Assembly: GCA_021818865.1 (NCBI GenBank)
Contig: JAKASX010000027.1
Location: 1-37,786 of the forward strand
Reading direction: 5' to 3'
Length of the DNA: 37,786 bases
Source of the DNA: Acidobacteriota bacterium
GTDB lineage: Bacteria > Acidobacteriota > Terriglobia > Acidiferrales > UBA7541
The first letter of the stretch is position 1; every line of letters begins with the position of its first letter. The position numbers and the translations under genes are program-made. Positions 24,887 through 29,669 of this stretch are shown one piece after another. The notes under the pieces are model-generated. The model worked only from the letters and a program-made list of their open reading frames with translations, was not told the origin of the DNA and made no database searches.

Positions 24887-27103
24887 TTGGGCAAGTGGGC
24901 CAGAGTTGTGTGCGTGTGCGTTTTCGTGTGTCTCGCCACTCCGGCCTGGGCGACGATTTTCGGCAGCGTGCGAGGCGTGGTGCACGATTCGCAGCATCTG
25001 CCGATCGCCGGAGCGAAAATCGTTTTGTCTGCGCGCGATTCCCAGTGGGAAAAATCGGCGCTGAGCAACCGGTTTGGCGAATTCTCGTTCGTAGCCGTTC
25101 CGCTGGGCCGCTATACGCTGCGGATTTCACACCCGGGATTCGCCACGGTCACCGCGCAAGTAACCGTCGAATCCGGCGGCGTACCGATTCTGCATTTCGA
25201 ATTGGCGGTCAAAACCGCGCGGCAAACGGTGACCGTTTCCGCCGCGCCGGCGCCGATCAATCCGCAATCGAGCACCACGGAAACCCTCCTCAGCGGGCGC
25301 CAGATCCAGAACACACCCGGGGCGTTTCGCACCAACAGCCTCGCGATGATCACCGACTACGTTCCCGGCGCTTACATCGTTCACGACATGCTCCACATCC
25401 GCGGCGGGCATCAGGTTTCCTGGCAAGTGGATGGCGTGCCGGTGCCCAATACGAATATCGGCAGCAACATCGGTCCGCAATTCGATCCGCTCGACGTGGA
25501 TTACCTCGAAGTGCAGCGCGGCGGCTACTCGGCGGCTTACGGCAACCGGACCTACGGCATCTTCAACGTGGTGCCGCGCACCGGCTTCGAAGGAAACCGT
25601 TTCGGCGAATTCGTCACGAGCTACGGCAGCCTGAACCAGACGAACGATTACTTGAGCTTCGGCAGCCACACCGACCGCTTCGCCTGGTACGCGAGCCTCA
25701 ACGGCAACCGCTCCGATTTCGGGCTCGATCCGCCCGTGGCGCAGGTGATTCACGACGCCGAAAACGGCTACGGCGGATTCACTTCGCTGATTTTCAACGC
25801 CACACCCAACGATCAGCTTCGCCTGGTCAGTTCCCTGCGCCAGGACTATTTCCAGGTTCCGAATACGCCCGAGCAGCAAGCGGCCGGCATTCGCGACGCC
25901 CAGGCCGAAGACGACGCGTTCGTCAATTTCTCCTGGGTCCACACGGCCGGGCCGGGCCTGATGCTCGTGGTTTCGCCCTTTTATCATTTCAATCGCGCCC
26001 ATTACATCGGCGGAGCGAACGACCTTCCCTACAGCCCGCAAAGCGACCGCGGCTCGCAATACGCGGGCGGTGAAGCGACGCTGAGCGTGACGCGCGGCCG
26101 GAACCACGCGGAAATTGGCCTCGAATCCTTCGCCCAGCGCGATAATTCGCTTTTCTCGATCACCGCGAACGCCGATCCGGCAACGACGATCGCGCAACGC
26201 GAGCGGCTCTGGGGCAGCGTCAGCGCCATTTACGCACAAGACCAGCTCCGTGCCACACGATGGCTGACCTTCAACGGCGGCTTGCGCTACACGCACTATT
26301 CGGGAAGCGTCGTCGAAAACGCCACCGATCCGCGCATCGGCGTGGCCATCGCCCTGCCGCGCGTTCACTGGGTTTTGCGCGGCTTCTACGGCCGCTATTA
26401 CCAGCCCCCTCCGCTCGAAACCGTCGGCGGACCGCTGCTCGCTTTCGCGTTTCAACAGGGTTTCGGTTTTCTACCACTGCGCGGCGAGCGCGACGAAGAA
26501 TGGGAAGTGGGGCTCGGCATTCCGTGGCATGGCTGGGCGTTCGATTTCGACCATTTCCACAACCGCGCCACGAATTTCCTGGACCACGACGAACTCGGCA
26601 ATTCCGATATTTTCTTTCCTCTCACCACCGCCGGCGCGCGCATTCAGGCCTGGGAAACCACCGTACGTTCGCCGCAGGTTTTCGGACGGTTGCAGGCGCA
26701 CCTGGCTTTCTCGAATCAGATGGCGCAGGGCTTTGGCGCGGTCACCGGCGGCCTGACCGATTTTTCGCCGCCGCCCAGCGGCTACTACTACCTCGATCAC
26801 GACCAGCGCAATACGCTCTCGACGGGATTCACTTTCGTGTTGCCCTGGCGCGGCCTGGTTTCCGCGGATTATGCCTACGGTTCGGGTTTCCTGAATGGCG
26901 ACGGTCCGGCGCACCTGCCGGCGCACCAGACGTTCGACTTCTCGGTGGAAAAACGGATCACCGATGCAGTGTCGCTCAGTGTCACGGCGATCAATATCGC
27001 CGGTTCGCGCTACCTGCTCGATAACAGCAACACCTTCGGCGGCACGCACTGGAACGCGCCTCGGCAAATCATCCTGTCGTTGCGCTACAACTTCCACTTC
27101 TGA
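24887..27103 (+). CDS. TonB-dependent receptor with N-terminal carboxypeptidase-regulatory-like domain
   Basis: The 738-residue product is an outer-membrane active transporter powered by TonB. It starts at TTG 24887, fixed by AAGGAGGAG 6 bases upstream and by the signal peptide that begins there (LGKWARVVCVCVFVCLATPA). Next come a CarboxypepD_reg-like domain (about 25-105, GSVRGVVHDSQHLPIAGAKI and RISHPGFATVTAQV), a plug (about 120-230, with DMLHIRGGHQVSWQVDGVPV and YLEVQRGGYSAAYGNRTYGI) and a 22-strand-type barrel ending in the aromatic LSLRYNFHF. The ligand is unknown. The adjacent Cys-rich secreted protein hints at a metal or metal complex. Confidence 0.92.
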   Translation: MGKWARVVCVCVFVCLATPAWATIFGSVRGVVHDSQHLPIAGAKIVLSARDSQWEKSALSNRFGEFSFVAVPLGRYTLRISHPGFATVTAQVTVESGGVPILHFELAVKTARQTVTVSAAPAPINPQSSTTETLLSGRQIQNTPGAFRTNSLAMITDYVPGAYIVHDMLHIRGGHQVSWQVDGVPVPNTNIGSNIGPQFDPLDVDYLEVQRGGYSAAYGNRTYGIFNVVPRTGFEGNRFGEFVTSYGSLNQTNDYLSFGSHTDRFAWYASLNGNRSDFGLDPPVAQVIHDAENGYGGFTSLIFNATPNDQLRLVSSLRQDYFQVPNTPEQQAAGIRDAQAEDDAFVNFSWVHTAGPGLMLVVSPFYHFNRAHYIGGANDLPYSPQSDRGSQYAGGEATLSVTRGRNHAEIGLESFAQRDNSLFSITANADPATTIAQRERLWGSVSAIYAQDQLRATRWLTFNGGLRYTHYSGSVVENATDPRIGVAIALPRVHWVLRGFYGRYYQPPPLETVGGPLLAFAFQQGFGFLPLRGERDEEWEVGLGIPWHGWAFDFDHFHNRATNFLDHDELGNSDIFFPLTTAGARIQAWETTVRSPQVFGRLQAHLAFSNQMAQGFGAVTGGLTDFSPPPSGYYYLDHDQRNTLSTGFTFVLPWRGLVSADYAYGSGFLNGDGPAHLPAHQTFDFSVEKRITDAVSLSVTAINIAGSRYLLDNSNTFGGTHWNAPRQIILSLRYNFHF

Positions 27104-27180
27104 TTGCCGCCCGGCCTTGAGCCCTTTAGGAGGCAACCCTTACGGGAAAATGGAACCACACTACACATTGCCAGATGGGC

Positions 27181-27186
27181 TATAAT
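27181..27186 (+). promoter_or_regulatory. Consensus -10 element before the three-gene cassette
   Basis: A perfect TATAAT lies 22 bases before the ATG at 27209, with transcription expected near 27193 and a GAGGGAAA ribosome-binding site within the 16-base leader. No convincing -35 lies 16-18 bases upstream. It would drive the three genes 27209-28808 as one unit independent of the TonB-receptor gene. Confidence 0.5.
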
Positions 27187-27208
27187 CCGGCCCGATGAGG
27201 GAAACCTG

Positions 27209-27886
27209 ATGCCAATCCAAGTCTCCGTCGAGCAGAATCAGCTAAGGCACACGGGCTTCTTCACGCGCCCGCTCCTCGGACTATGGGGTGACGGGAAGAC
27301 CCTCCTACAGGGCCTGTATGGCGCGTTTTCACCGTACGGCGCGACCATCGCCAACATTCGAAACGAGTCCACTTCGCTCAGTCCCAATGATCAGGTGGTG
27401 TCCGTTAGCCTGGGACTCAACAAGATACACAGGTTCCGGCTGGACAGGACGGAAACCACGGTCACCAACTTCTCTCAAGAGGACCTCAAAGCCTTTCCCG
27501 AACTTATTGCCGCTTCGGAAAGGTGGATGAGGGAGGCCGTCCCATCCTTCGCCTTCGGCTCGCACGTGTTCGCGTACGCCGCCCATGGCCGGCCTCGCGG
27601 GGAAAGCGTCGAAGAGATGCTGAAGGCTCTGGGCCCGTCAGCACCGAGCGTCGGGGGAACGGACCGCGGCACTGGCCTCACTTTCCACTGGGAACTACCG
27701 GACAGTGGTTGGAGAACCCAACTCGCGATCGACCACTCAATTTTGATCCCGGAAGGGCTTTTCATCATGTTTACACTGCGGGTAGACGCTGACAGCCTCG
27801 ACTACGGTAAACTAGCGGAAGAGGGCCGAAAGTACCTTGATGGGGTGATGAACGAAGTCGGCCTGAGCATCAGCAGGTCTGCGTAG
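27209..27886 (+). CDS. Protein of unknown function, first gene of the protease cassette
   Basis: The 225-residue soluble product has no signal peptide or membrane helix. It appears to be an alternating alpha/beta protein: strands such as VVSVSLGLNKIHRFRLDRTE, a helix FSQEDLKAFPELIAASERWM, and a C-terminal part with LAIDHSILIPEGLFIMFTLR then DYGKLAEEGRKYLDGVMNEV. The general strand-helix rhythm loosely recalls the TIGR04255 family, but I would not assign it. The ATG at 27209 follows GAGGGA; the frame is open back to 27104. It is followed after 9 bases by the DUF5678-like gene. By eye it uses more A/T-ending codons than the core genes, as imported DNA might. Confidence 0.65.
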   Translation: MPIQVSVEQNQLRHTGFFTRPLLGLWGDGKTLLQGLYGAFSPYGATIANIRNESTSLSPNDQVVSVSLGLNKIHRFRLDRTETTVTNFSQEDLKAFPELIAASERWMREAVPSFAFGSHVFAYAAHGRPRGESVEEMLKALGPSAPSVGGTDRGTGLTFHWELPDSGWRTQLAIDHSILIPEGLFIMFTLRVDADSLDYGKLAEEGRKYLDGVMNEVGLSISRSA

Positions 27887-27895
27887 GGAGCTAAC

Positions 27896-28378
27896 ATGTC
27901 CGTTATTCAGGCGATTCTCGGAACTGCCGGCCTCGTCGGGACGCCCAAAGGAGGACTGGCCACAGGAGTGCACTTCAGAAACGACCCCCAACTCGCAGAC
28001 CGCTTGTCCCAGGGCGATATCGAAGGCATGCCCACGCAGGCATGGACGCCCGCCTCCACCGACCTCCTGCAGACGTTCAGGGACCAGGTCGAACAGGGTT
28101 CGCCCGAAGCCGCGGTGGTTATGTCCATGCGCGCAACCGCAAGTAAAACGTTCCGGGAAACTGCTACGGGAGAGAGTCCAGAGATGGAGTGGCTGGCCGA
28201 AAACGCCACTGCACTGGAGGCCTACCGCGGGGAGTGGTTGCTGATCGTAGCGACAGATCTCGTCGCGCATAGCCAAGACTTCGTGGACATACTCCTCGCA
28301 ATCCGCTCCCGCGGGGTCAATTCGCCCTTCATCTACTACGTCCCGCGTCCTGACGAAGTCAACTTCATCGCAGTTTAA
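27896..28378 (+). CDS. Protein with DUF5678-like C-terminal domain
   Basis: The 160-residue product has an unassigned N-terminal half (about 1-95) and a C-terminal domain (about 98-155) reading EWLAENATALEAYRGEWLLI then VATDLVAHSQDFVDILLAIR and SPFIYYVPRPDE. This follows the DUF5678 pattern of an entry helix, a YxGxWxxV strand, a second helix and a PxxxxVP end. In my recollection DUF5678 genes often sit directly before retropepsin-like protease genes, as here. The ATG has GGGAG 5 bases upstream; the stop lies one base before the start of the protease gene. What the domain does is unknown; it may guide or restrain the protease. Confidence 0.7.
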   Translation: MSVIQAILGTAGLVGTPKGGLATGVHFRNDPQLADRLSQGDIEGMPTQAWTPASTDLLQTFRDQVEQGSPEAAVVMSMRATASKTFRETATGESPEMEWLAENATALEAYRGEWLLIVATDLVAHSQDFVDILLAIRSRGVNSPFIYYVPRPDEVNFIAV

Positions 28379-28379
28379 T

Positions 28380-28808
28380 TTGACCGTGCCCACTGTCGAA
28401 TACCCATTTTCGCTAGACTACAAGGCCGTTCCCGGCCTCGGCAGGATGCCGGCCGTGGAAGTTGTCCTGAAGTACGCTGGGCATGAGGCACGTGCCGTGG
28501 CGGTGATGGACTCAGGCTCAGCTCTCACAGTCTTTGGTCACGAATACGCCCTAGCTTTGGGCATACCGGATGTTACCGTGGGCCGCCAGCAGGCCATTAG
28601 TACACTCGGCGGCGGCATCGACTGCTACATGTTCGACGTCGAGATGGAGATCCGTGTCAAGGAACACAGCAACCGCTTCCAGGCCCAAATCGGGTTCTTC
28701 GCAGGTCGCGTCCGCCGCAACATCTTAGGAAGGAATATCTTTTTCGCCCACTACCAGCTAGGCTTCCATGAGAGCCAGCAGGTAATTCATATTCGTCCCG
28801 AGGACTAG
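28380..28808 (+). CDS. Retropepsin-like aspartic protease
   Basis: The 142-residue product is a small clan AA aspartic protease that would act as a dimer. The catalytic aspartate is D44 in VMDSGSALTVF (DSG variant of DTG), after the strand PAVEVVLKYAGHEARAVAVM; the hydrophobic-hydrophobic-Gly motif of the family is NILGRN at 114-119. The start is TTG 28380, one base after the upstream stop, or GTG 28386. No signal peptide is present, so it acts in the cytoplasm. Its TAG stop lies in the CTAG target duplication of the downstream IS, so the insertion left the protein unchanged. Substrate unknown. Confidence 0.75.
   Translation: MTVPTVEYPFSLDYKAVPGLGRMPAVEVVLKYAGHEARAVAVMDSGSALTVFGHEYALALGIPDVTVGRQQAISTLGGGIDCYMFDVEMEIRVKEHSNRFQAQIGFFAGRVRRNILGRNIFFAHYQLGFHESQQVIHIRPED
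28805..28808 (+). repeat. Left target-site duplication of the IS element
   Basis: CTAG, repeated at 29654-29657 on the other side of the element. The last three bases are the TAG stop codon of the aspartic protease gene. The four-base palindromic CTAG fits the target preference known for IS5-type elements, although a two- or three-base duplication cannot be excluded because the site is symmetrical. Confidence 0.6.
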
Positions 28809-28823
28809 AACCCATCTCATAAA
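28809..28823 (+). repeat. IS left terminal inverted repeat
   Basis: AACCCATCTCATAAA, matching the reverse complement of the right end (AAGTTATCTCATAAA) at 12 of 15 positions. The stop codon of the second transposase frame lies within it. Confidence 0.7.
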
Positions 28824-29215
28824 TGCCTCAGGAGGATAACGAGGCAACCGAGTTGGACCATGGCAAGGAAGTTCAGCTCATGGTATTCCCACCGCGTGAC
28901 CAAGCGGCGGAAGTTATGCAGCCAGGCGAACAGGCGCTCGATTTTCCAGCGGCGGCAGTACCGCCGCAATTCGCGGCCGTCTTGCGTTCTTCGGCGGCGA
29001 GTGGGGTTGTGGGGAGCGATGAGGCGAATGTGATGTCTCCGGCGGAGTTGTTGATCTAATCCGTCGCTGTCGTAAGCGCGGTCGCCGATCATGCGCTCCG
29101 GCTTGGCCCGCGTGAAGCGCTGCCCGACGGTCGCTTCGACGAGTTTCGTTTCATGCGGCGAAGCGCTGGCGATGCTGCAGGCGACAGGAAGACCATGGCG
29201 GTCTGTGATCGCCAT
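28817..29215 (-). CDS. IS5-family transposase, C-terminal part (second frame)
   Basis: The frame begins MAITDRHGLPVACSIASASP and carries the remaining catalytic residues: the second aspartate in ERMIGDRAYDSDGLDQQL and the glutamate in RRWKIERLFAWLHNFRRL. It ends within the left inverted repeat. The ATG at 29215 is probably not a true start; the same frame extends upstream as GAAVGPTRRGKGSKI, the normal family sequence, up to the G run at 29259-29262. It would be made only by frameshifting from the first frame, or not at all if the element is dead. Confidence 0.8.
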   Translation of the reverse strand: MAITDRHGLPVACSIASASPHETKLVEATVGQRFTRAKPERMIGDRAYDSDGLDQQLRRRHHIRLIAPHNPTRRRRTQDGRELRRYCRRWKIERLFAWLHNFRRLVTRWEYHELNFLAMVQLGCLVILLRHL

Positions 29216-29583
29216 GATTTTACTGCCTTTTCCTCGGCGAGTCGGGCCGACAGCAGCGCCCCTTTCTTCGCCGAACTGAAGCTGGCATCGATGAAGGTCT
29301 CCGAGAGGTCGAGCTTGCCGCGCCCTCGTAGGTCTTCGGCCAGCGCGTGCAACAACCGGGTCAGAGTGCCATCACGCTGCCATTGCTGAAAACGCCGGTG
29401 GCAGGTTTGATAAGGCGGATAACGGTCGGGCAGATCGTGCCAGGGAGCACCGGTGCGCAAGATCCAGAGAACGCCGTTCAGCACCGCTCGCGCATCGCGC
29501 CAGGGCCGACCGCGACCGTCGGGACGTCGCTTGGGAGTGAGCAAAGGCTTGAGAACTTGCCACTGCGCCTCGGTCAGTTCCAT
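29089..29583 (-). CDS. IS5-family transposase, N-terminal part (first frame)
   Basis: The frame starts MELTEAQWQVLKPLLTPKRR and holds the N-terminal helix-turn-helix-like domain (GRPWRDARAVLNGVLWILRT and WHDLPDRYPPYQTCHRRFQQ) and the first catalytic aspartate in SETFIDASFSSAKKG. After AKKG it runs out of frame (ALLSARLAEEKAV...) until its stop, giving 164 residues. One additional G in the run of four Gs at that point would restore AKKGGAAVGPTRR and a single transposase of about 255 residues. Confidence 0.8.
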   Translation of the reverse strand: MELTEAQWQVLKPLLTPKRRPDGRGRPWRDARAVLNGVLWILRTGAPWHDLPDRYPPYQTCHRRFQQWQRDGTLTRLLHALAEDLRGRGKLDLSETFIDASFSSAKKGALLSARLAEEKAVKSWRSQTAMVFLSPAASPALRRMKRNSSKRPSGSASRGPSRSA

Positions 29584-29638
29584 GCTCCCGATTTACGCTG
29601 TTTTGCACAACCCTCAAGCCCGAAATGAATTGTATGTG

Positions 29639-29653
29639 TTTATGAGATAACTT
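29639..29653 (-). repeat. IS right terminal inverted repeat
   Basis: TTTATGAGATAACTT on the plus strand, the imperfect inverse of the left end. It is followed directly by CTAG at 29654-29657, the second copy of the target duplication. Confidence 0.7.
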
Positions 29654-29669
29654 CTAGTCCCGGTCCCGC

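Follow-up and report, generated by a model that had tools for sequence, protein, structure and literature searches.

A three-gene cassette ending in a retropepsin-like aspartic protease in an Acidobacteriota genome: a candidate toxin-antitoxin-like module

What might a small aspartic protease of the retroviral type do as the last gene of a compact bacterial cassette? The question is raised by a locus of an Acidobacteriota bacterium (Terriglobia; Acidiferrales; UBA7541), located on contig JAKASX010000027.1 of assembly GCA_021818865.1, of which the whole analyzed stretch of 37,786 nt (forward strand) is here called the window. As recognized in an earlier annotation from the letters of the window (the sequence-only reading), three co-directional genes follow each other with gaps of 9 nt (genes 1 and 2) and 1 nt (genes 2 and 3):

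27209..27886, + strand: gene 1, 225 amino acids (aa), first component of the cassette
27896..28378, + strand: gene 2, 160 aa, putative antitoxin-like or adaptor protein with DUF5678 at its C-terminal end
28380..28808, + strand: gene 3, 142 aa, predicted retropepsin-like aspartic protease

We propose, with a probability of roughly 0.6, that this cassette is a three-component toxin-antitoxin-like module, possibly directed against phages, with the aspartic protease as effector, whereby we infer toxicity, trigger and substrate of the latter. The proposal builds on the observed architecture and recurrence of the cassette, the conservation of the catalytic motifs, the fusion of DUF5678 to antitoxin domains, the swapping of the last gene and the compactness of the insert.

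Gene 1 and the exchange of the last gene

Searches of gene 1 against Pfam, NCBIfam and PADLOC gave no match, and neither did its single sequence in 299 genomes of the class. Its family was found by searches across the phylum (single sequence and profile) and by applying an 11-member profile to two other classes. Counting the window, this yielded 20 loci whose flanks could be read, after leaving out L171 and L180 (contig edges) as well as L182, a weak partial match without recognized cassette. A search for related loci with two aligned gene-1 members gave a single locus, coinciding in position with one of those found before. Gene 1 heads a compact cassette in all readable loci except L182 and is a conserved first component belonging to a family without characterized member. 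The last genes of the 20 cassettes are distributed as follows:

Retropepsin (9): window, L088, L095, L096, L099, L176, L177, L178, L179
PIN (5): L085, L086, L087, L098, L168, all above the Pfam cut-off
HEPN (4): L097, L100, L172, L181
No type assigned (2): L169, L170

Since Pfam gives no match above cut-off for the HEPN last genes, they were assigned by their profile, which matches solved HEPN structures in the PDB (1.7e-8). The copy of gene 1 in L172 appears degraded and is without visible middle gene, and L169 is without convincing third gene. Proteins of the PIN and HEPN families are known mainly as RNase toxins. Given the swapping of retropepsin, PIN and HEPN behind gene 1, the retropepsin thus occupies a toxin slot.

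In a maximum-likelihood tree of 19 gene-1 proteins, in which the long branches of L096 and L098 are uncertainly placed, the type of the last gene switches at least eight times (six times without the two unassigned loci), and the starred branches of this tree force four changes of the retropepsin label. Gene 1 of the window groups (97/92 support) with those of three PIN cassettes and one unassigned cassette. A comparable exchange is seen in genome G345, where the middle proteins of L121 and L142 (485 and 584 aa, DUF5678 near the C-terminus) have a homologous region of 440 aa in common (4e-48) and are followed by a retropepsin in L121 and by a PIN protein in L142. The extra tail of the L142 protein behind DUF5678 matches the L087 middle gene in its tail (2e-6), and the PIN proteins of L142 and L087 are homologous (1e-16). 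According to these alignments, the C-terminus of the middle protein tracks the type of the last gene. The large N-terminal part common to L121 and L142 has a weak AbiG-like Pfam score in the latter.

The sequence-only reading had staked its idea of a joint system on finding gene 1 beside the other two genes elsewhere. Indeed, gene 1, a DUF5678-type protein and a retropepsin occur together in eight genomes besides the window, with the DUF5678 of the middle gene scoring below cut-off in L176, L178 and L179 and being recognizable only by eye in L088, L096 and L177. The middle-gene N-termini of L088, L095, L096 and L176-L179 have a short start, loosely M-x-G-x-Q-like, in common, possibly a peptide by which they dock to gene 1.

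Gene 2 and the DUF5678 family

The domain suspected at the end of gene 2 was recovered above the Pfam cut-off (E 1.1e-5; 25.6 bits versus a gathering score of 23.2):

28214..28348, + strand: DUF5678 domain of gene 2 (residues 107-151; PF18929), proposed protease-cognate module

A phylum-wide search detected DUF5678 in 21 of 297 genomes, with as many as ~10 copies in a single genome. Four genomes (G306, G345, G543 and G557) harbour about 6-10 DUF5678 loci each, as expected for expanding toxin-antitoxin-like families. Leaving aside a false hit, a duplicate and a locus at a contig edge, 54 DUF5678 loci were counted, window included. In 39 of these, a retropepsin is encoded directly 3' on the same strand, usually no more than a few tens of nt away; the retropepsin profile comprises 16 members, some of them from the same DUF5678 loci, and was thus partly trained on them, which does not apply to their position. 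Three further loci have a variant retropepsin, recognized in one case by a sub-threshold Pfam match and in two by eye. The neighbourhood of DUF5678 and retropepsin genes stated in the sequence-only reading therefore holds for this phylum, and such tight co-directional pairs, recurring across genomes, correspond to what characterizes type II toxin-antitoxin modules.

In the two-gene loci, DUF5678 forms the C-terminal part of a protein with variable N-terminal part. Its N-terminal fusion partners are AF2212-like, RelB-like (with Phd-YefM) and FitA-like ribbon-helix-helix domains; RelB-like domains were found in 5, FitA-like in 2 and AF2212-like in 1 of the 51 DUF5678 proteins scanned, and many others carry a short helical N-terminus without family match. 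By this domain order, DUF5678 sits where the toxin-binding regions of antitoxins sit. A match of DUF5678 to PurF (E 0.0014) was dropped as probable chance.

Other genes may also follow DUF5678. In L140 (967-1709, G345), the gene for the DUF5678 protein overlaps a Fic/Doc gene (E 2e-15) by 4 nt, and in L142 it precedes the PIN gene, the PIN match of which is just below cut-off. The DUF5678 protein of L140 extends into a C-terminal tail of ~55 aa. Another three-gene version is found in L049 (6737-7940 in reverse-complement coordinates, G385), where a different gene of 122 aa overlaps the DUF5678/retropepsin pair by 4 nt on its upstream side; HicAB-like genes, HNH-like genes and an integrase were recognized by eye in its surroundings.

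Gene 3, the retropepsin-like protease

Both motifs by which the third protein had been assigned to the aspartic proteases of clan AA are intact:

28509..28517, + strand: catalytic motif Asp44-Ser45-Gly46 (DSG), conserved in the retropepsin partners
28722..28733, + strand: ILGR, hydrophobic-hydrophobic-Gly motif of clan AA, conserved in the retropepsin partners

Among the retropepsin partners, the catalytic triplet is conserved with Asp in 35/35, Ser or Thr in 31/35 and Gly in 34/35, and the second motif with Gly in 35/35 and the preceding Leu in 34/35. The protein of the window alone matches Asp_protease_2 below threshold (E 0.003), its relatives score above the cut-off of this Pfam family, and the family profile matches solved retropepsins (feline immunodeficiency virus protease, 2.3e-4; DDI1, 2.4e-4). 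Profile and motif evidence thus identify gene 3 as encoding a predicted retropepsin-like aspartic protease of clan AA, the length of which (142 aa) fits a single-lobe retropepsin (~100-145 aa) and which is probably a homodimer. With an alternative start at GTG 28386, the catalytic Asp would be residue 42 instead of 44. Relatives of gene 3 are patchily distributed (8/200 genomes of the class); a search for related loci with gene 3 as query yielded no locus.

The cassette as an insertion

The genes flanking the cassette were recognized by eye as a TonB-dependent receptor-like and a CoA-binding-protein-like gene. In the closest genome of the same genus (G114, 84-89 % DNA identity), homologues of positions 27103 and 29661 are only 42 bp apart, and those of the same flanks in a second one (G051) 117 bp; neither the cassette nor the insertion sequence (IS) next to it is present at this junction in either genome.

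27104..29660, no strand assigned: interval missing from the same-genus genomes, comprising the three-gene cassette and a later IS insertion
28802..29660, no strand assigned: IS5-like insertion sequence with transposase frames on the - strand and inverted repeats, not part of the module
27181..27186, + strand: TATAAT, -10-like hexamer 5' of gene 1, no matching -35

Subtracting the IS leaves an insert of ~1.7 kb, barely longer than the three genes. From its absence in the relatives, the cassette appears to be a discrete acquired insertion. Loss in the relatives is possible, yet less likely than acquisition, since both tested relatives are empty and the other genus members searched gave no match to gene 1 or gene 3.

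The presence of an IS directly after gene 3 was corroborated by inverted repeats of 22 nt (28802-28823 and 29639-29660) with CTAG at both ends (28805-28808 and 29654-29657); copies of the IS ends are also present elsewhere in the genome. As the target CTAG holds the stop codon of gene 3 and this stop is kept, gene 3 is not truncated. The IS is a hitchhiker outside the module. The less GC-skewed codon use noted for the cassette was reproduced, with a modestly lower GC content at third codon positions (0.70-0.72 in the three genes versus 0.74-0.77 in flanking genes). The TATAAT before gene 1 is likewise present, but a promoter scan gave no sigma-70-type promoter above threshold at this hexamer.

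A possible link of gene 1 to TIGR04255

Behind the TIGR04255 gene of L111 lie a middle gene and a HEPN gene, each with its homologue in the gene-1 cassette of L100 (6e-13 and 1.7e-15). Profile-profile alignment places gene 1 and TIGR04255 collinearly along most of their length, with E values of 0.002-0.006 versus 0.1-0.4 for controls and a reported probability of 7-15 %; the TIGR04255 hidden Markov model (HMM; 30-bit cut-off) did not match any of 11 gene-1 members. Remote homology of gene 1 and TIGR04255 is suggested by this alignment, and their replacing one another in the same kind of cassette is the better supported of the two conclusions drawn from these comparisons. Membership of gene 1 in TIGR04255 is not claimed, since ordinary HMM searches do not link the families and the profile match falls short of the significance needed.

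On plasmids of Crinalium and Rhizobium, too, TIGR04255 genes precede two hypothetical genes on the same strand. Moreover, TIGR04255 heads a recurrent three-gene cassette in L109, L110, L113 and L114, with a middle protein of ~160 aa and a last one of 160-190 aa. The TIGR04255 cassette of L165 (3968-6141, Rhizobium plasmid), the last gene of which is NlpC/P60-like by eye, adjoins multiubiquitin and ThiF genes.

Proposed function and alternatives

In the proposed toxin-antitoxin-like module, the gene 3 protease would be the effector, taking the slot of the PIN and HEPN RNase toxins of the sister cassettes. Gene 2 would act as antitoxin or adaptor, with its C-terminal DUF5678 presumably restraining the protease by inhibition and its N-terminal part possibly connecting to gene 1. 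The latter, perhaps a remote relative of TIGR04255, may serve as a shared regulator (sensor, chaperone or co-antitoxin) for protease and RNase versions alike. A trigger, e.g., phage infection or stress, might release the hold of the gene 1 and gene 2 products on the protease, which would then cleave a host or phage protein and thereby stop growth. The further-reaching idea that one family of first proteins controls interchangeable antitoxin-effector pairs, with a retroviral-type protease serving for the first time as bacterial toxin or abortive-infection effector, i.e., a new three-component class, is tentative and in our estimate falls somewhat short of an even chance.

Several observations weigh against the toxin-antitoxin-like interpretation. 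Pfam recognizes no DNA-binding domain in gene 2 of the window; about 12 of the 54 DUF5678 loci are without recognized retropepsin, and L140 and L142 show that the domain also goes with last genes other than retropepsins. For gene 1, modelled by itself and together with one relative, AlphaFold reached predicted local distance difference test scores of only 42 and 38. In the gene-1 cassettes L088 and L096, DTA replaces DTG/DSG at the active site, and these proteases may be inactive or altered. The above-mentioned possible loss of the cassette in relatives belongs here as well.

Of the functions envisaged in the sequence-only reading, a defence or toxin-like role is the one favoured by the evidence, whereas gene 1 as substrate and a regulated cytoplasmic proteolysis find no particular support, since PIN and HEPN cassettes, devoid of a protease, are headed by gene 1 as well. 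In the main rival explanation, the retropepsin is a processing enzyme with a regulatory rather than a toxic role: by cutting the DUF5678 protein (or the product of gene 1), it would switch transcription or set free another activity. It would account for the several two-gene partners that combine an antitoxin-type DNA-binding domain with DUF5678, as in protease-repressor pairs (PMC2701414). However, PIN and HEPN effectors fill the same slot behind the same first gene, the flanks read around most DUF5678/retropepsin loci show no additional effector gene, and the middle gene of the window has no such recognizable domain; this explanation is considered rather unlikely. A housekeeping proteolysis module unrelated to toxin-antitoxin systems is more improbable still: RimB and RloA, which process polyglutamate sequences and have an ATP-grasp protein in their operon, offer a precedent (PMC12239564), but the cassette has no ATP-grasp partner, and such a module hardly agrees with the patchy distribution of gene 3 relatives, the antitoxin fusions, the empty site in relatives and the exchange with PIN and HEPN. 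Finally, most DUF5678/retropepsin pairs are without gene 1, and the single-sequence search with gene 1 had remained without match in the class, as would be expected if gene 1 were a chance neighbour of an unrelated pair. This view is refuted by independent loci, namely the same three-gene order in eight other genomes and the similar cassettes headed by gene 1 in all other readable loci bar one weak match.

Anti-phage abortive infection proper, in which gene 1 would sense an infection product and license an otherwise harmless protease, is a narrower form that overlaps with the toxin-antitoxin-like interpretation. Weak matches of the proteases to candidate defence systems in PADLOC point in this direction, as do the extra conserved component compared with two-gene toxin-antitoxins and the surroundings of two gene-1 cassettes, L097 adjoining a type I restriction specificity gene and L085 lying near a TIR/SEFIR-like gene (both by eye). 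On the other hand, the neighbours of the cassette in the window are housekeeping genes and the IS, and none of the cassette proteins was found on the plasmids, phages and viral contigs searched, the latter weighing also against the broader interpretation. Abortive infection in this strict sense is thus a possibility that we rate well below even.

To our knowledge, no function has been assigned to DUF5678 or to most small prokaryotic retropepsins. The open-access literature (subscription literature and preprints lay outside the search) yielded no paper on the function of DUF5678, on that of TIGR04255 or on a retropepsin with an antitoxin. The cassette is best read as a variant of toxin-antitoxin-like systems, and the open literature covered by the search offered no example of such a system. 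The exchange with PIN and HEPN behind one gene-1 family leads to the testable hypothesis that aspartic proteases serve as toxin-like effectors, for which retroviral protease inhibitors are possible chemical probes. If true, toxin-antitoxin and defence systems would gain a protease class, the variety of antitoxin domains joined to DUF5678 would be explained, and gene 1, perhaps together with TIGR04255, would represent a shared regulator for several effector types.

Comparison with known systems

Toxin-antitoxin-chaperone modules also consist of three components, of which a SecB-like one is possibly a chaperone of the antitoxin. The present cassette differs from these in gene order, and its gene 1 has no match to SecB or any other Pfam family. 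PDC-M08 and PDC-M52 are unnamed candidate-defence predictions in PADLOC-DB, the B components of which weakly match the retropepsins (window protease: PDC-M08B 2.4e-5, PDC-M52B 2.4e-3; relatives up to 2e-9). Part of the cassette has in this way already been flagged as a defence candidate. Membership in PDC-M08 or PDC-M52 was rejected, since both components are required and only the B-like one matched; PADLOC had no match for any of the DUF5678 proteins, nor for the two gene-1 proteins that were scanned.

RimB and RloA are bacterial retropepsin-like aspartic proteases as well, differing by their operon, the cleavage of polyglutamate and the lack of an antitoxin-like partner (PMC12239564); the same protease type is found in APRc, which belongs to a different operon without antitoxin-like partner (PMC4140852). 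A protease beside an antitoxin-like partner is otherwise known from modules of COG2856 (ImmA-like) Zn proteases and Xre, which differ from the cassette by a zincin, a helix-turn-helix partner and the absence of gene 1. These ImmA-type proteases were proposed to act on Xre repressors and to be part of toxin-antitoxin circuits, and the 2009 compilation by Makarova lists them together with AF2212 antitoxins and without any aspartic protease (PMC2701414). In architecture, the cassette resembles type II modules of the VapBC and HEPN kinds, with their compact order of antitoxin then toxin, an antitoxin composed of a variable N-terminal and a toxin-cognate C-terminal module, and PIN or HEPN proteins as carried by the sister cassettes. 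From these, the cassette is set apart by a middle gene without recognizable DNA-binding domain, by the upstream gene 1 and by an aspartic protease as putative effector.
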